Positions 14,500 through 22,038 of a stretch of DNA of 33,788 nucleotides are shown one piece after another. Origin of the DNA: Streptomyces sp. MS191. GTDB lineage: Bacteria > Actinomycetota > Actinomycetes > Streptomycetales > Streptomycetaceae. The notes under the pieces are model-generated. The model saw only the letters and a list, made by a program, of their open reading frames with translations, was not told the DNA's origin and searched no databases. Each line of letters opens with the position of its first letter. Position 1 is the stretch's first letter. The position numbers and the translations under genes are program-made. The stretch is from positions 319,000 through 352,787 of the forward strand of contig NZ_RDBI01000065.1 of assembly GCF_008042125.1 (NCBI RefSeq). The letters are read 5' to 3'.

Positions 14500-14545
14500 A
14501 CCCACGTCGTTCCGGGCGCCATCCCTGCCCGGGGCGGCCAGGATC

Positions 14546-14551
14546 TACTAT
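14546..14551 (+). promoter_or_regulatory. Candidate -10 element of the cobN promoter
   Basis: TACTAT fits the TANNNT consensus of the main sigma factor and would start transcription near 14557-14559, just at the 5' edge of the riboswitch aptamer. No convincing -35 element is seen. Confidence 0.45.
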
Positions 14552-14554
14552 GCA

Positions 14555-14668
14555 GACGGCATGGGGTCCCAGGACCCCGGGGAGGAAGCCCGGTGAGAAT
14601 CCGGCGCGGTCCCGCCACTGTGAGCCGGCCCCCGAGACGGGGCCGGTGAGTCAGGAACTCCCGCCGTC
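14555..14668 (+). promoter_or_regulatory. Cobalamin riboswitch controlling cobN
   Basis: The conserved core is unmistakable: GGTGAGAATCCGGCGCGG (from 14592), then CCGCCACTGTGA (from 14612), and the closing GTGAGTCAGGAACTCC (from 14646). Closing helix P1 can form between GACGGC (14555-14560) and GCCGTC (14663-14668). It binds adenosylcobalamin and should reduce cobN expression when the vitamin is plentiful. Downstream, CGGGG (14681-14685) can pair with CCCCG (14694-14698), which runs directly into the Shine-Dalgarno GAGGAAGG. Control is therefore probably at translation initiation. Confidence 0.93.
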
Positions 14669-14716
14669 CACACGACCACCCGGGGCGCGGAAACCCCGAG
14701 GAAGGCCTGCGCTCGC

Positions 14717-17700
14717 ATGCGAATTCTGTTGCTGTCGCACTCCGACACGGACCTGCTCAGCGCCCGCGCGGCCGGCGGACCGGTCGAGTACCGCTTCGCC
14801 AACCCCGCCCGGCTTCCCGCCGCCGACCTGCCCGGTCTCCTGGACGGCGCCGACCTCGTCCTGGTCCGCCTCCTCGGCGGCCTGCGGGCCTGGGAGGAGG
14901 GCCTCGAGGCGCTGCTCGCCGAGGACCAGCCGCGGCCGGTGGTCGTGCTCTCCGGCGAACAGGCCCCCGACGCCCAGCTCATGGAGGCCTCCACGGTCCC
15001 CATAGGCGTCGCCACCGAGGCGCACGCCTACCTCGCGCACGGCGGCCCGGACAACCTGGAGCAGCTGGCCCGCTTCCTCTCCGACACCGTGCTGCTCACC
15101 GGGCACGGCTTCGAGTCCCCGGCCGCCGCCCCGACCTGGGGCCCGCTGGAGCGCACCCCCGGCACCACCGACGGCCCGACCGTCGCCGTGCTCTACTACC
15201 GCGCCCACCACATGAGCGGCAACACCGGCTTCGTCGCCGCGCTGTGCGAGGCGCTGGAGGACGCCGGAGCCCAGGCCCGCCCGTTGTTCGTGGCCTCCCT
15301 GCGCGCGCCCGAGCCCGAGCTGCTCGACCGTCTCCGTGACGCCGACGCGATCGTCACCACCGTCCTCGCGGCCGGCGGCACCAGGCCCGCCGAGGCCCAG
15401 GCCGGCGGCGACGAGGAGGCCTGGGACGCCGGCGCGCTCGCCTCCCTCGACGTGCCGATCCTCCAGGCGCTGTGCCTCACCGGCTCGCGCGCCGCGTGGG
15501 AGGAGAACGACGAGGGCCTGTCGCCGCTCGACGCGGCGAGCCAGGTCGCCGTCCCCGAGTTCGACGGCCGGCTCATCACCGTCCCCTTCTCCTTCAAGGA
15601 GATCGACGAGGACGGGCTGCCGTCCTACGTCGCCGACGCCGAGCGCGCCGCCCGCGTCGCCGGGATCGCCGTGCGCCACGCCCGCCTGCGGCACATCCCG
15701 AACGCCGAGAAGAAGCTGGCGCTCGTCCTCTCCGCGTACCCGACCAAGCACTCCCGGATCGGCAACGCGGTCGGTCTGGACACCCCCGCCTCCGCCGTGG
15801 CGCTGCTGCGCCGGCTCCGTGAGGAGGGCTACGACTTCGGGCCGGTCGAGGACGTCCCCGGCCTGGTCTCCGGCGACGGCGACGAGCTGATCTACGCCCT
15901 GATCGAGGCCGGCGGCCACGACCAGGACTGGCTCACCGAGGAGCAGCTCGCCCGCAACCCCGTCCGCATCCCCGCCGCCGACTACAAGCGCTGGTACGCG
16001 ACGCTGCCCGCCGAACTCCGCGCCTCCGTCGAGGAGCACTGGGGGCCGGCGCCCGGCGAGATGTTCCTCGACCGCTCCCGCAACCCCGACGGCGACATCG
16101 TGCTCGCCGCGCTGCGCCGCGGGAACCTGCTGGTCGTCATCCAGCCGCCGCGCGGCTTCGGCGAGAACCCGATCGCGATCTACCACGACCCGGATCTGCC
16201 CCCCTCGCACCACTACCTGGCCGCCTACCGCTGGATCGCGGCACGCACCGAGGACGGCGGCTTCGGGGCCGACGCCATGGTCCACCTGGGCAAGCACGGC
16301 AACCTGGAATGGCTGCCGGGCAAGAACGCCGGCCTGTCCGCGGCCTGCGGTCCGGACGCGGCACTCGGCGACCTGCCGCTCGTCTACCCCTTCCTGGTCA
16401 ACGACCCGGGCGAGGGCACGCAGGCCAAGCGGCGCGTGCACGCCACCCTCGTCGACCACCTCGTGCCGCCGATGGCGCGCGCCGACTCGTACGGCGACAT
16501 CGCGCGCCTGGAGCAACTGCTCGACGAGTACGCGCAGATCTCCTCGATGGACCCGTCCAAGCTCCCCGCGATCCGCGCCCAGATCTGGACGCTGATCCAG
16601 GCCGCCAAGCTCGACCACGACCTGGGGATGGCGGACCGGCCCGACGACGACGGCTTCGACGACTTCCTGCTGCACGTCGACGGCTGGCTCTGCGAGGTCA
16701 AGGACGCCCAGATCAGGGACGGTCTGCACGTCCTCGGCGGGGCTCCGGCGGGCGAGGCGCGGGTCAACCTGGTCCTGTCGATCCTGCGGGCCCGGCAGAT
16801 CTGGGGCGGCACGCAGGCGCTGCCGGGCCTGCGCGAGGCGCTGGGTCTGGACGAGTCGGCCGCGACCCGCACGACCGCCGACGAGGCGGAGGCGAAGGCC
16901 CGCGAGCTGGTCGAGGCGATGGAGGCCGCGGACTGGTCCGTGGACGCGGTCCCCGCGGTCGCCGGGGCGTACGGGACCGAGGTCGCCGACGTGCTGCGGT
17001 TCGCCTGCGAGCAGGTGGTTCCGCGACTGGCCGCGACGACCGACGAACTCGCGCACGCCGTGCACGCGTTGAACGGCGGCTTCGTGCCGGCCGGCCCCTC
17101 GGGTTCGCCGCTGCGCGGCCTGGTCAACGTGCTCCCGACCGGACGCAACTTCTACTCCGTCGACCCCAAGGCCGTCCCCTCCCGCCTGGCGTGGGAGACC
17201 GGCCAGGCGCTCGCCGACTCGCTCCTGGAGCGCTACCGCGCCGACAACGGCGAGTGGCCGACCTCGGTCGGGCTCTCGCTGTGGGGCACGAGCGCGATGC
17301 GCACCGCGGGCGACGACGTCGCGGAGGCGCTCGCCCTGCTCGGCGTCCGCCCGACGTGGGACGACGCCTCCCGTCGTGTGAACGGCCTGGAGCCGATCCC
17401 CGCGGCGGAGCTCGGCCGTCCGCGCGTCGACGTGACGCTGCGCATCTCGGGCTTCTTCCGTGACGCGTTCCCGCACGTCATCGGGCTGCTCGACGACGCG
17501 GTGCGGCTCGCCGCCTCGCTGGACGAGCCGGCCGAGTCCAACTACGTACGGGCGCACACGCAGGCGGACCTGGCCGCGCACGGGGACGAGCGGCGCGCCA
17601 CCACCCGGATCTTCGGCTCGCGGCCGGGCACCTACGGCGCGGGCATCCTGCAGCTGATCGACTCGCGCGACTGGCGCACGGACGCGGACCTCGCCGAGGT

Positions 17701-18331
17701 CTACACGGTGTGGGGCGGGTACGCGTACGGCCGGGGCCTCGAAGGCCGCCCGGCCCGGGCGGAGATGGAGACCGCGTACAAGCGGATCGCCGTGGCCGCG
17801 AAGAACACGGACACGCGCGAGCACGACATCGCGGACTCCGACGACTACTTCCAGTACCACGGCGGCATGGTGGCGACCGTCCGCGCGCTCAAGGGCACGG
17901 CCCCCGAGGCGTACATCGGCGACTCCACCCGTCCGGAGACGGTTCGCACCCGAACGCTGGTGGAGGAGACCTCCCGCGTCTTCCGCGCCCGGGTGGTCAA
18001 CCCGAAGTGGATCGAGGCGATGCGCCGCCACGGCTACAAGGGTGCCTTCGAACTCGCGGCGACGGTGGACTACCTGTTCGGCTACGACGCGACGACGGGT
18101 GTGGTCGCCGACTGGATGTACGACAAGCTCACGGAGACGTACGTCCTGGACCCGGAGAACCAGGCCTTCCTGAAGGAGGCCAACCCCTGGGCCCTGCACG
18201 GCATCGCGGAACGCCTCCTGGAAGCCGAGTCCCGCGGCATGTGGGAGAAGCCGGACCCGGAGGTCCTGGACCGCCTGCGCCAGGTGTTCCTCCAGACGGA
18301 GGGCGACCTGGAGGGCGGCGACGAGGACTGA
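14717..18331 (+). CDS. cobN: Cobaltochelatase large subunit CobN
   Basis: A 1204-residue protein, full length for CobN/BchH-type chelatase subunits. It inserts Co2+ into hydrogenobyrinic acid a,c-diamide with ATP supplied by an AAA+ partner complex (CobST or ChlI/ChlD-like). Visible signatures are YYRAHHMSGNTGFV near 157, the AYPTKHSRIGNAVGLDTP block near 338, HLGKHGNLEWLPGKNAGLS near 523 and a C-terminal SDDYFQYHGGMVATVRALKG region near 1037. The Shine-Dalgarno GAGGAAGG precedes the ATG by about 11 bases and adjoins the riboswitch expression platform. No chelatase AAA+ subunit gene follows: the transcript is closed by a hairpin at 18352. The antisense frame open over most of the gene is a codon-bias shadow. 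Confidence 0.96.
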   Translation: MRILLLSHSDTDLLSARAAGGPVEYRFANPARLPAADLPGLLDGADLVLVRLLGGLRAWEEGLEALLAEDQPRPVVVLSGEQAPDAQLMEASTVPIGVATEAHAYLAHGGPDNLEQLARFLSDTVLLTGHGFESPAAAPTWGPLERTPGTTDGPTVAVLYYRAHHMSGNTGFVAALCEALEDAGAQARPLFVASLRAPEPELLDRLRDADAIVTTVLAAGGTRPAEAQAGGDEEAWDAGALASLDVPILQALCLTGSRAAWEENDEGLSPLDAASQVAVPEFDGRLITVPFSFKEIDEDGLPSYVADAERAARVAGIAVRHARLRHIPNAEKKLALVLSAYPTKHSRIGNAVGLDTPASAVALLRRLREEGYDFGPVEDVPGLVSGDGDELIYALIEAGGHDQDWLTEEQLARNPVRIPAADYKRWYATLPAELRASVEEHWGPAPGEMFLDRSRNPDGDIVLAALRRGNLLVVIQPPRGFGENPIAIYHDPDLPPSHHYLAAYRWIAARTEDGGFGADAMVHLGKHGNLEWLPGKNAGLSAACGPDAALGDLPLVYPFLVNDPGEGTQAKRRVHATLVDHLVPPMARADSYGDIARLEQLLDEYAQISSMDPSKLPAIRAQIWTLIQAAKLDHDLGMADRPDDDGFDDFLLHVDGWLCEVKDAQIRDGLHVLGGAPAGEARVNLVLSILRARQIWGGTQALPGLREALGLDESAATRTTADEAEAKARELVEAMEAADWSVDAVPAVAGAYGTEVADVLRFACEQVVPRLAATTDELAHAVHALNGGFVPAGPSGSPLRGLVNVLPTGRNFYSVDPKAVPSRLAWETGQALADSLLERYRADNGEWPTSVGLSLWGTSAMRTAGDDVAEALALLGVRPTWDDASRRVNGLEPIPAAELGRPRVDVTLRISGFFRDAFPHVIGLLDDAVRLAASLDEPAESNYVRAHTQADLAAHGDERRATTRIFGSRPGTYGAGILQLIDSRDWRTDADLAEVYTVWGGYAYGRGLEGRPARAEMETAYKRIAVAAKNTDTREHDIADSDDYFQYHGGMVATVRALKGTAPEAYIGDSTRPETVRTRTLVEETSRVFRARVVNPKWIEAMRRHGYKGAFELAATVDYLFGYDATTGVVADWMYDKLTETYVLDPENQAFLKEANPWALHGIAERLLEAESRGMWEKPDPEVLDRLRQVFLQTEGDLEGGDED

Positions 18332-18416: not shown

Positions 18417-19373
18417 CTACGTCTCGTTCGTTCGGGTGCCGAGCACCCGCACCGCCTCGACGATCAGATCCCAGAACCCGGCCACGTCGACCTCCATGCC
18501 CACGTCGACGTGCGGCGCGACACCCGTCACCCCGTCCAGGTCCACCACCGTCGCCCCTCGCGTGTACGTCCCCGTCAGCTCCACGGACACCGCGGCCCGC
18601 ACCAGGCTGACCAGCGACGGGTCGATCAGATGGGCCACCGTCAGCGGATCGTGCAGCGGCGGCGCGTCGAAGCCGAAGACCTGGCGGTAGGTGGAGGCGA
18701 AGAAGGTCAGCAGGTCCACGCAGAGCCGGCTGAGCGGCGTGTCCAGGGCCGCGATACGGGCGACGACGTCGGGGGTCGCGCGGACCTGGTGGGTGGCGTT
18801 GAGGCCGAACATCGTCACCGGCAGCCCGCTGGTGAGGACGATGTCCGCCGCCTCCGGGTCGCACAGGATGTTGAACTCCGCGGCCGGTGTGGTGTTCCCG
18901 CGGCCGGTCGAGCCGCCCATCAGCACGATCCGCTCGATCCGGGGGGTCAGCTCCGGATGGGCGAGCAGCAGTGTCGCGATGTTCGTCAGCGGCCCGGTCG
19001 GCACCAGGGTCACGGGCACCGGGTGCGCGAGCAGCGTGTCCCGGATCAGCGTGAGGGCGTCGCGCGGGTCCAGCGGGACGCGGGGCTCGCCCGCACCCCA
19101 GCCGGGGCCGTCGAGCCCGGTGCGCCCGTGGATGTCCTCGGCGAGCCGCGGCCTGCCGTGCAGCGGACTGTCCCGGCCCGCCGCGACCGGCACGCCGTCG
19201 AGGCCGGCGGCGTCGCACACCCGGCGGGCGTTGAGGGTCGTCTTCTCCAGCGACTGGTTGCCGGCCACGGTGGTGATCGCCAGCAGCTCGACGGCGGGGT
19301 GCGCGGCGGCCAGCAGGATGTTGAACGCGTCGTCGTGGCCGGGATCGCAGTCGAGGATCACGGGTACGGCCAT
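18417..19373 (-). CDS. Inosine/uridine-preferring nucleoside hydrolase family protein
   Basis: A 318-residue N-ribohydrolase that should split the N-glycosidic bond of ribonucleosides to base plus ribose. The calcium-binding signature VILDCDPGHDDA has its aspartates at D8, D10, D14 and D15. LVPTGPLTN (near 125), VLMGGSTGRGN with AEFNILCDPEAADIVL (near 155-180), and PPLHDPLTVAH near 240 complete the active site, so the enzyme looks functional. The ATG at 19373 is chosen because the family begins at this strand and GGTGG lies upstream; the frame is open further 5' without conserved sequence. Base specificity cannot be read. The link to the neighbouring cobalamin genes appears only positional. 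Confidence 0.92.
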   Translation of the reverse strand: MAVPVILDCDPGHDDAFNILLAAAHPAVELLAITTVAGNQSLEKTTLNARRVCDAAGLDGVPVAAGRDSPLHGRPRLAEDIHGRTGLDGPGWGAGEPRVPLDPRDALTLIRDTLLAHPVPVTLVPTGPLTNIATLLLAHPELTPRIERIVLMGGSTGRGNTTPAAEFNILCDPEAADIVLTSGLPVTMFGLNATHQVRATPDVVARIAALDTPLSRLCVDLLTFFASTYRQVFGFDAPPLHDPLTVAHLIDPSLVSLVRAAVSVELTGTYTRGATVVDLDGVTGVAPHVDVGMEVDVAGFWDLIVEAVRVLGTRTNET

Positions 19374-19545
19374 ACCGCCACCGTCCCACAGGTGTGCCCC
19401 GCCGTCACCGGCCCTCGCTCGCCCGTCGCCCGTCGCAGGCGCATCGGTCCTCCGCTCGGAACGTCCGCAGACCGCCCTGCGGCTCCGCGCACCAGTCAAC
19501 AGCCGGAAGGCGGGTGGCGCATGTCGACCGCAAAGCGCATTGTTC

Positions 19546-19582: not shown

Positions 19583-20530
19583 ATGAACCGTGGTCCGACC
19601 CGTCTCCGCCTGCTCGCGGCCCTGCCGTTCCCGCTCGTACTCGCCGCGCACACCACGCTGTTCGTGCGCTGGGGCGACCGGCTGCCCGACCCGCTCGCCA
19701 CCCACTTCTCCGCCGGCGGCGGGGGCCGCGCCGACGGATGGACCGGTGCGACGGCCTACGCCCTGATCGCCTCCGGACTGCTCGTCGCCCTCGGCGCCGG
19801 CTGGACCCTGCTCGTACGGCGCGGCGCGCTCTGGGGCGCCTGGGCGACGGCGGGCTTCACCGGCGCCCTGCTCCTCCTGGTCCTCGGCGACAACCTCGAC
19901 GCGGTCGACGCGGCGACGGTCACCTCGCCGCCCGCGCACCTCCTGGTCGCGGGGGCCGCGGCGGGCGTCGCCGGGCTCCTCGGCCTGGCCCTGACCCGTC
20001 TCGTACCGCCGGAACCCGCGGTCCCGCCGGGGCCGGGGGCCGTGCAGGCCCTGCCGCTCGGGGCGACCGAGGTCGCGGGCTGGTCCCGTGGGGCGGGCTC
20101 GCGCGCCATGGCGTCCGTCGGCGCGGTGACCGGGACGGCGGGCCTCGCCCTGTTCGTCGCGGGACCCTGGCCGGTCGCGCTCGTCCTCCTCGTCTCCGGT
20201 CTGCTCGTCCTGCTCCTCGCGGGGGTCCGCGTCAGCGTCGACCGCCGCGGGCTCACCGTCCGGCCCACGCTCGCCCCCTGGCCCCGGATCCGGGTGCCCC
20301 TCGACAGGGTCGAGGGCGCGAGCGTCCGCGACGTCGACCCGCTCGCGGACTTCGGAGGCTGGGGCTACCGCGTGCGGGCGCACGCCACCGGGGTGGTCCT
20401 GCGCTCGGGCCAGGCACTGGTCGTACGGAAGGACGGCGGCCGGGAGTTCGCGGTCACCGTGCCCGACGCGGCCACGGCGGCGGCGCTCCTCAACGCGCTC
20501 GTCGAACGCCGTGGGCATGGGAAGGTCTGA
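19583..20530 (+). CDS. DUF1648 membrane protein with C-terminal PH-like domain
   Basis: A 315-residue integral membrane protein. The N-terminal region carries the DUF1648 signature RLPDPLATHFSAGG (33-46) after a first hydrophobic segment. About five to six hydrophobic segments are visible in total (roughly 10-28, 58-80, 85-103, 120-138, and a pair at 186-222). The last 90 residues, from VSVDRRGLTVRP, are soluble and resemble the bacterial PH-like fold. No enzymatic motif is seen. It has a strong Shine-Dalgarno (GAGGGGG) and is followed after 2 bases by a YtrA-type GntR gene; this pairing recurs in Streptomyces and resembles cell-envelope stress modules. Exact function unknown. Confidence 0.85.
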   Translation: MNRGPTRLRLLAALPFPLVLAAHTTLFVRWGDRLPDPLATHFSAGGGGRADGWTGATAYALIASGLLVALGAGWTLLVRRGALWGAWATAGFTGALLLLVLGDNLDAVDAATVTSPPAHLLVAGAAAGVAGLLGLALTRLVPPEPAVPPGPGAVQALPLGATEVAGWSRGAGSRAMASVGAVTGTAGLALFVAGPWPVALVLLVSGLLVLLLAGVRVSVDRRGLTVRPTLAPWPRIRVPLDRVEGASVRDVDPLADFGGWGYRVRAHATGVVLRSGQALVVRKDGGREFAVTVPDAATAAALLNALVERRGHGKV

Positions 20531-20532
20531 CC

Positions 20533-20892
20533 ATGCTCTTCCGGGTCGACCCCGCCTCCGCCGTACCGCTCGGCGACCAGATCGCGGGCTGTGTCCGCGG
20601 CGCCCTCGCCGACGGCTCGGCCGTCCCCGGCGAACGCCTCCCGGCCGCCCGGGAACTCGCCGACTCCCTGGGCGTCAACGTCCACACCGTCCTGCGCGGC
20701 TACCAGCGCCTGCGCGAGGAGGGCCTGATCGAACTGCGCCGCGGCCGGGGAGCCGTCATCGTCCCCGGCGCCGCCGTCCAGGACCGGGCCCGGCTGGTCG
20801 GACGCGTCCGCGACGTCCTGGCGGAGGCACGCGGCCTGGGCCTGACCGAGGACGAGATCCTGGACCTGGTCAGGACCGCGCTGACGGGTTGA
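20533..20892 (+). CDS. YtrA-subfamily GntR transcriptional regulator
   Basis: A 119-residue regulator with an N-terminal winged helix (PLGDQIAGCVRGALADG, LPAARELADSLGVNVHTVLR near 36-55, YQRLREEGLIELRRGRGAVI) and only a short C-terminal helical tail (LVGRVRDVLAEARGLGLTEDEIL), as in YtrA proteins, which lack a large effector-binding domain. It is 2 bases downstream of the DUF1648 gene and surely co-transcribed. It probably represses its own operon at the palindrome at 19546-19558. The effector is unknown; YtrA-type proteins often govern membrane transporter or envelope-stress genes. Confidence 0.92.
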   Translation: MLFRVDPASAVPLGDQIAGCVRGALADGSAVPGERLPAARELADSLGVNVHTVLRGYQRLREEGLIELRRGRGAVIVPGAAVQDRARLVGRVRDVLAEARGLGLTEDEILDLVRTALTG

Positions 20893-20963: not shown

Positions 20964-21572
20964 TCAGTCGGTGTCGCCGCCCGCCCCCGTGAACGGCCCG
21001 CCGAGGCGCAGGTTCCAGCGACCGGAGCGGCCGCTGAGGTGCACGCCGGCCAGCGGCCGCACGTCCAGCCGCCAGAAGACCCGGTCGTCCGCGCCGAGGG
21101 CGTGGACCACCACGGCCCGGACGACGTCGGGCTCGGCCACGACGAGCACCCGGCCCGCCGGGTGCGGCGCGTCCAGCCAGCCGCCGACCCGCTCGCGCAG
21201 CGCCCGCAGGGACTCGCCGCCGTGCGGGGCGGCGTCCGGGTCGGAGAGCCAGGCGGCCACCGACTCCTCCTCCTCGCCCACGAGGGCGTCCAGGGTCCGG
21301 CCCCGCCAGCGGCCCATCGCGCAGCCGGCGAGGGCGTCCACCGGAGCAGCCCCGGGGAACCCGAGCGCCTCCGCCGTCTCCCGGCACCGGACCGAGGGCG
21401 AGACGAGGACGCGCGCCCCGGCGCCACCGGACGTCCGGACCGGGTCCAGGGCCCGCCCCAGCTCCTCCGCCCGGGTCCGGCCGGCCGCCTCCAGCGGTTC
21501 GCCGTCGTCGAAACGGGCCTCGCGCAGCGCCGCGTTCACGGCGGGAGCGATCAGCGTGACGCGTGCGGTCAT
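20964..21572 (-). CDS. Histidine-phosphatase-fold protein lacking both catalytic histidines
   Basis: A 202-residue protein aligned with the phosphoglycerate-mutase/CobC superfamily. The phosphatase arginine motif SPSVRCRETAEALG (58-71), LAGCAMGRWRGRTL (81-94) and PHGGESL (116-122) are kept. The RHG motif expected after the first strand is replaced (LIAPAVNAALREARF, APA at about 9-11). The second histidine motif is also changed: VLVVAEPDVVRAV has EP (147-148) where HG is expected. It is therefore unlikely to be a phosphatase. It is divergent from the cobalamin-riboswitch-controlled cbtBA, close to where CobC-like proteins might be expected. A role in binding or regulation is possible. The start at 21572 has GAGGGA upstream. 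Confidence 0.8.
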   Translation of the reverse strand: MTARVTLIAPAVNAALREARFDDGEPLEAAGRTRAEELGRALDPVRTSGGAGARVLVSPSVRCRETAEALGFPGAAPVDALAGCAMGRWRGRTLDALVGEEEESVAAWLSDPDAAPHGGESLRALRERVGGWLDAPHPAGRVLVVAEPDVVRAVVVHALGADDRVFWRLDVRPLAGVHLSGRSGRWNLRLGGPFTGAGGDTD

Positions 21573-21652: not shown

Positions 21653-21765
21653 CGACGACAGCACGACGGAAGCCGGTGCAACTCCGGCACGGTCGCGCCA
21701 CTGTGAGCCGTGCCCGCCCGAACCAGGGGCGGAGCGCGGTGAGTCAGACCCGGAAGCCGTCGTCG
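21653..21765 (+). promoter_or_regulatory. Cobalamin riboswitch controlling cbtBA
   Basis: The core contains GCCGGTGCAACTCCGGC (from 21672), then GCGCCACTGTGA (from 21695) and GGTGAGTCAGACCC (from 21738). P1 forms a perfect 7-bp helix, CGACGAC (21653-21659) with GTCGTCG (21759-21765). It differs in its arms from the riboswitch of cobN but keeps all core boxes. A small hairpin, GGGAC (21779-21783) with GTTCCC (21788-21793), abuts the Shine-Dalgarno GAGGAGG at 21794. Adenosylcobalamin should therefore lower translation of cbtB and of the following cbtA. Confidence 0.93.
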
Positions 21766-21807: not shown

Positions 21808-22038
21808 ATGGCCGAGGCCCTCGCCTCATCCGCCGTCTCTTCCACCCCCACCGTCGCCCTTCCGGCATCCCTGCCGGTCCGCGCCGTGCTGCCCTGGGCC
21901 GCGTTCGCCGGAATCCTGATGCTGGTCGCGCTCTACTTCGTCGGCGCCGAGCAGGGCGCCCTGTCCGTCTTCGCGGGCAGCGACGTGCACGAGTGGGTGC
22001 ACGACGGTCGTCATCTGCTCGGCTTCCCCTGCCACTGA
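21808..22038 (+). CDS. cbtB: CbtB-type cobalt transporter subunit
   Basis: A 76-residue protein with one membrane segment (about 27-47, AVLPWAAFAGILMLVALYFV). Its short outward tail ends with a metal-binding pattern: H61, H65, H69, C75 and H76 (HEWVHDGRH...GFPCH). This is the CbtB architecture, and the protein is expected to gather Co2+ for the multi-spanning CbtA encoded 14 bases downstream. The start is clear: an ideal Shine-Dalgarno GAGGAGGT lies 6-13 bases upstream. A cobalamin riboswitch precedes it, which strongly supports a cobalt role. The N-terminal 20 residues are low-complexity Ala/Ser/Thr. Confidence 0.92.
   Translation: MAEALASSAVSSTPTVALPASLPVRAVLPWAAFAGILMLVALYFVGAEQGALSVFAGSDVHEWVHDGRHLLGFPCH

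Follow-up and report, generated by a model that had tools for sequence, protein, structure and literature searches.

The window, by which we mean the whole 33,788-nucleotide stretch of Streptomyces sp. MS191 DNA analysed here, carries on its reverse strand a gene for a protein with the histidine phosphatase fold (HP), which stands divergent to cbtB and cbtA with 235 bases between the starts of HP and cbtB (Table 1). The HP start was placed at the ATG at 21572, in agreement with the start of most homologues. An earlier note on this DNA had put a cobalamin riboswitch opposite HP, and a match was indeed seen in the cbtB leader, just under the Rfam cut-off and with nothing at the cut-off itself. 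At six of six related Streptomyces loci, AdoCbl-type riboswitch matches were found between cbtB and HP (36.5–43.3 bits, below the cut-off of 50), and of 12 divergent loci examined, 7 had a B12 riboswitch above cut-off in this interval. HP itself lies off the riboswitch-controlled transcript at the divergent loci. The transporter genes were assigned with Pfam; an NCBIfam search gave only 18 bits for cbtB against a cut-off of 64.4, and no match for the cbtA product. Two forward-strand genes are convergent with HP, encoding a GntR-type helix-turn-helix protein (20533–20892, 50.3 bits) and a protein with a DUF1648 match below cut-off (19583–20530). The product of a reverse-strand gene at 18417–19499 presumably resembles inosine-uridine nucleoside hydrolase, as judged from its DCDPGHDD motif.

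Table 1 Features of the Streptomyces sp. MS191 locus, in window coordinates.
Feature	Position	Strand	Details
HP, histidine-phosphatase-fold pseudoenzyme (putative)	20964..21572	-	202 aa + stop, open frame
APA replacing catalytic RHG, HP residues 9-11	21540..21548	-	alignment
Arg segment SPSVRCRETAEALG, HP residues 58-71, Arg62 retained	21360..21401	-	
PHGGES loop, HP residues 116-121, including His117 and Glu120	21210..21227	-	
Glu147 replacing second catalytic His of HP	21132..21134	-	alignment
Cobalamin riboswitch core, cbtB leader	21668..21730	+	RF00174 28.2 bits, E 1.8e-05, gathering score 31.5
cbtB, 76 aa, C-terminal HEWVHDGRHLLGFPCH	21808..22038	+	PF09489 39.7 bits, cut-off 27
cbtA, membrane subunit, 272 aa	22053..22871	+	PF09490 258.1 bits, cut-off 30.7
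Second cobalamin riboswitch, 5' of cobN	14543..14679	+	RF00174 42.6 bits
cobN, cobaltochelatase subunit, upstream in window	14717..18331	+	PF02514 1330.9 bits

HP scored 79.4 bits with the His_Phos_1 profile (PF00300, cut-off 21.7), and the Pfam search returned this domain alone, without a DNA-binding domain. Since the match runs from profile position 23 to 189, the end of the profile that bears RHG is the part left unmatched. In line with the earlier note, which had read APA for RHG, EP for the second HG and an otherwise preserved fold, the translation gives LIAPAVN where relatives show L-x-R-H-G, and VAEPDVVR occupies the place of the second His motif, while Arg62, the PHGGES loop with its Glu120, and Arg152 are all retained. 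An AlphaFold model built from 36 sequences had a mean pLDDT of 90.8, and its structural matches included phosphoserine phosphatase 1 (Z 23.6), PhoE (23.0) and E. coli CobC (22.8). HP has the profile and the fold of branch 1 of the histidine phosphatase superfamily and lacks both RHG and the second catalytic His. Its top NCBIfam matches, to RNase H/acid phosphatase and CobC models, were both far under cut-off (58.9 bits against 162.9 for the CobC equivalog TIGR03162). The most hydrophobic 19-residue segment of HP averages 1.57, compared with 2.85 for CbtA, and in the model it folds inside the phosphatase domain; HP is likely to be soluble on this predicted structure.

The residue changes are not peculiar to one strain. 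In an alignment of 41 long-form Streptomycetaceae HP sequences (35 from homologous loci and 6 others), position 10 holds Pro, Ala or Ser and never His (0/41), and Glu147, Arg62, Glu120 and Arg152 are fixed (41/41 each). The loss of His, which the earlier note had proposed to check among homologues, is fixed in this sample. Beyond this family, Glu120 is found in 89 of the 90 sequences placed in a tree (below), and Arg62 is missing from 13 of 18 rows from Pseudomonadota and Acidobacteriota. His117 is present in 38 of the 41 Streptomycetaceae rows, in all 14 rows of a paralogue family, in 5/5, 8/10 and 15/18 rows of other groups, and in none of eight canonical proteins, with Pro at this position in Klebsiella, Acinetobacter, Pantoea and most short forms of HP. 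Position 186 holds Trp in 82 of 88 rows and in one of the eight canonical rows, two of which are gapped. From these alignments, and with a small canonical sample, His117 and Trp186 look like features of the HP clade that predate the loss of His. A universal metal site was rejected, as no His or Cys was invariant across 14 diverse rows.

The frame of HP is under selection. Across 14 near pairs, some sharing members, the in-frame dN/dS had a median of 0.30 (range 0.16–0.56), whereas shifted-frame controls gave medians of 1.78 and 1.73, with only 1 of 28 values below 1 (0.88). The low in-frame values indicate that HP is constrained, though somewhat less than CbtA (median 0.22, 12 pairs, again with shared members). 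A reduced form occurs at 19 loci (L047 and L049–L066; S. virginiae, S. lavendulae and kin), where HP lacks the stretch bearing the Arg motif; this was established by alignment for 12 and by eye for the remaining 7, in which start codons are uncertain. These proteins have 149–166 residues, with a mean column identity of 73% (12 aligned) and dN/dS of 0.15–0.49 (8 pairs), and cbtB and cbtA are present at 18 of the 19 loci. AlphaFold returned a low-confidence model for this form (pLDDT 51). At two further loci (L017:5001-7637 and L071) the HP frame continues without a stop into a long frame, possibly through loss of the stop or sequence error.

The 90-sequence tree was calculated with the five catalytic columns excluded, by a quick search with SH-aLRT support and without bootstrap. 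Eighty-two rows, gathered by similarity to a query lacking both His, formed one clade (SH-aLRT 99) apart from the eight canonical RHG proteins, and the phyla sampled in it are Actinomycetota, Pseudomonadota and Acidobacteriota. RHG was seen in 0/82 clade rows and in 8/8 outgroup rows, which speaks against the case, raised in the earlier note, of a decaying copy among RHG-bearing homologues. Among the 82 rows of this similarity-gathered set, 22 keep both catalytic His, 7 keep one and 53 keep none. The first branch (support 87) consists of nine rows of other Actinomycetota with RHA and both His together with one CHA row, and a same-class group of five rows has SHG, SHA or GHG, again with both His. 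The Pseudomonadota and Acidobacteriota rows show CHG, CHA, AHA, SHG, CAG, CSA, CAA, CRG, CQG, SSG, ASG and CPP, with the first His in 7 and the second in 13 of 18. In the Streptomyces rows Glu147 is accompanied by an APA, SPA, SAA or AAA-like motif. If the direction is taken from the outgroup, the tree requires three or more changes to complete loss of His. Because 22 of the 82 rows have both His (nine of them as RHA, with the Arg), a non-catalytic nature may not hold for the whole family, and the RHA-type members may, by their motifs, still be enzymes.

Linkage to cbtBA was assessed in 246 Streptomyces genomes, 154 of which contain CbtA. At least 84 of 150 listed HP matches have a listed cbtA within 3 kb, in divergent orientation in 62 cases and in convergent orientation in 22; these counts are not phylogenetically independent. 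Among the matches listed, at least 81 of the 97 with 53% identity or more to HP were linked and 16 had no listed cbtA within 3 kb, whereas 50 of the 53 below 53% identity were unlinked. All 96 genomes with a match of at least 53% identity have CbtA (Fisher p 1e-27, uncorrected for shared descent). At the loci of the 35 aligned long forms, 29 of the stretches examined also hold cbtB or cbtA, which are missing from the other 6. Ten unlinked matches that were read (L097–L106) belong to a paralogue family that is likewise without both His, with an AAA-like motif and with Glu147 (Glu147 in 14/14 rows); examples away from cbtBA are L104:5751-6344 and a copy in Streptomyces sp. MS191 itself (C192:10181-10762). 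At L104 the genes ahead of the paralogue encode a GNAT acetyltransferase, a GntR/aminotransferase regulator and a GHL10 protein, and an argC-like gene stands at a greater distance; relatives of the GNAT frame recur at 8 other loci. CbtBA is thus not the sole home of such dead copies. A conserved cbtBA neighbourhood, which the earlier note had made a test of its reading, recurs in the genus and beyond; the stronger expectation that HP always neighbours cbtBA failed on the 16 unlinked close matches among those listed and on the paralogue.

The association also extends outside Streptomyces. Among 296 Actinomycetota genomes sampled, HP was found within 3 kb of 19 of 61 listed cbtA places, and in 14 of the 19 it follows cbtA on the same strand with 30–119 bases between the matched parts; the 42 places with no HP nearby come mostly from families absent from the CbtA tree described below. 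Plasmid records place HP with cbtBA in Bradyrhizobium, Paracoccus and Granulicella, and over all loci three gene orders were seen, with HP divergent from cbtBA, convergent with it or directly after cbtA. On Klebsiella, Acinetobacter and Pantoea plasmids the order is nthA-nthB-accessory-cbtB-cbtA-HP, that is, a cobalt nitrile hydratase operon, in which both His of HP are gone. The nitrile hydratase alpha chains of these operons carry CTLCSC, which we take to be the motif of the cobalt-type enzyme, and no B12 gene is annotated in the stretch read, for which the gene table is incomplete. The genes cbtA and HP overlap by 4 bases in Pantoea, abut with a gap of 0 in Bradyrhizobium and are 4 bases apart in Klebsiella and Acinetobacter. 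Unlinked plasmid relatives of HP in Shinella HZN7 and S. mirabilis have other surroundings; the S. mirabilis protein (L158:4001-4621) has CATT and EP motifs and a very long branch, and its surroundings show no annotated cbt gene. In Burkholderia arboris, a PHO4-type phosphate transporter follows HP (L150:4743-6335). Candidate CbtA-HP fusions at four loci (L137, L138, L140 and L141) were rejected, as by coordinates the long stop-to-stop frames are not in the frame of CbtA.

HP tracks a single branch of CbtA. CbtA occurs in 40 of 299 genomes sampled from the phylum of a Rhizobiaceae locus (L044), and HP stands beside 7 of 40 cbtA places read, all within one CbtA branch; in an eighth case the contig ends, and HP adjoins a cut cbtB on another contig of that genome (L044). 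A tree of CbtA has two deep branches, with an HP neighbour in 49 of 52 rows of one versus 0 of 31 of the other, although some rows had been picked via HP. In the unbiased part of the tree, drawn from the 299-genome sample, the figures are 8/9 (one via the second contig) versus 0/31.

Taken together, these data suggest that HP is best read as a non-catalytic protein that serves one CbtBA subfamily as accessory subunit or as regulator, and it is probably a soluble third component of this predicted cobalt transporter. The close placement of HP after cbtA suggests a subunit, which favours a non-catalytic accessory; overlapping or near-abutting genes are common among subunits. The data lend most support to the earlier note's proposal that HP takes part in cobalt import as a non-enzymatic partner, with the qualification that the family spans several phyla, with graded loss and some members that keep both His. 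The cobalamin link that the earlier note had drawn is indirect, because cbtB-cbtA-HP also occurs in nitrile hydratase operons for which the stretch read shows no annotated B12 gene.

HP resembles CobC, the adenosylcobalamin-alpha-ribazole phosphatase (6e4b, 6nru; TIGR03162), in its fold (rmsd 2.1 over 193 residues at the Z of 22.8 for 6e4b), GGES loop, Arg62 and cobalamin-related neighbourhood, and differs from it in lacking both catalytic His and the first Arg. Its top structural match, at Z 23.3–23.6, is phosphoserine phosphatase 1 of Hydrogenobacter (4ij5; H9A mutant 4ij6), in which we take His9 to be the catalytic His; the motif of HP has no His counterpart to it. HP could still be an enzyme, either catalysing another reaction with Arg62, Glu120 and Glu147 in the retained fold or acting as a weak phosphatase in B12 nucleotide-loop assembly, and we regard this as unlikely. 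Such a role would fit the fixation of these residues and of Arg152 in the 41 Streptomycetaceae rows, the clade members with both His and the distant RNase H/acid phosphatase and CobC matches, but the phospho-accepting His is missing in Streptomyces, loss of both His needs several changes on the tree, and the short-form lineage has lost the Arg as well. The genome also encodes a separate protein with intact RHG that scores 577 bits against the RNase H/acid phosphatase model (cut-off 326); as it reaches 140 bits against the alpha-ribazole phosphatase model, under the cut-off of 162.9, it is partial evidence only against HP replacing CobC. A plain B12 phosphatase would, moreover, be a misfit in the nitrile hydratase operons, as HP there has neither His and the stretch read, with its incomplete gene table, has no annotated B12 gene.

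Alternatively, HP might respond to cobalt or corrinoids as a sensor or regulator with expression, and not the transporter, as its target, an idea to which the divergent promoter region shared with the riboswitch-bearing cbtBA leader and the paralogue away from cbtBA lend some weight. We consider it improbable, given that Pfam detects His_Phos_1 and no DNA-binding domain, and that the operon lineages place HP after cbtA with an overlap or 0–4 bases between them. That HP is a decaying or hitch-hiking gene without function is very improbable: the lost active site, a dN/dS somewhat above that of CbtA and the further shortening in one lineage are what decay would leave, but the in-frame constraint against the shifted-frame control disfavours decay, linkage to cbtBA in three phyla disfavours hitch-hiking within one genus, and a neutral relic would be unlikely to stay intact next to a single subfamily of transporters through three gene orders and three phyla.

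For the favoured accessory of CbtBA, we infer the following course. The ancestor would have been a CobC/PhoE-type histidine phosphatase that became tied to the CbtBA transporter, and its lineage would have acquired residues of its own, His117 and Trp186. Phosphatase chemistry would then have been lost stepwise, until in Streptomyces both catalytic His were gone and Glu was fixed in place of the second. HP would most likely bind CbtA or CbtB on their cytosolic side, or the Co(II) that has just been imported, and control or assemble cobalt uptake. In a more specific and rather doubtful version, HP would be a cytosolic subunit of the CbtBA subfamily that receives cobalt or gates its entry, with the former phosphate pocket (in Streptomyces His117, Glu120, Glu147 and Arg62) remodelled so as to accommodate Co(II) or lock onto CbtA, so that a dead enzyme controls the importer. 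We know of no ATPase for the CbtBA importer.

Dead members of phosphatase families with a binding role have been described. Pseudophosphatases such as STYX, in the accounts available to us, likewise keep the fold and have lost catalysis; unlike HP, STYX belongs to the protein tyrosine phosphatase family and to eukaryotic signalling. CbtAB (PF09489 and PF09490 for the CbtBA neighbours of HP) was described as a predicted cobalt transporter in a paper (PMC2667541) whose main text contains no occurrence of the word 'phosphatase'. The cob clusters of Leptospira are reported to carry, besides cbtBA, a further histidine phosphatase gene, hps_1 (PMC4758666); the locus tags are separated by 14 numbers, and the passages available are silent on lost catalytic residues. 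Searches of an open-access collection, with most subscription papers lying outside it, brought up no paper on the loss of the active site or on the link to one CbtA branch.

Public plasmid records label HP proteins 'histidine phosphatase family protein', and this label masks both the link to the transporter and the series from enzyme to non-enzyme. That series, which starts from RHA with both His and ends with neither, would form a natural record of an enzyme becoming a non-enzyme beside a fixed partner. To our knowledge, the mechanism of CbtBA has not been worked out. If the favoured reading is true, a third, enzyme-derived component follows one CbtA branch across phyla, in B12 clusters and in nitrile hydratase operons alike, and would offer a direct handle on how CbtBA works.
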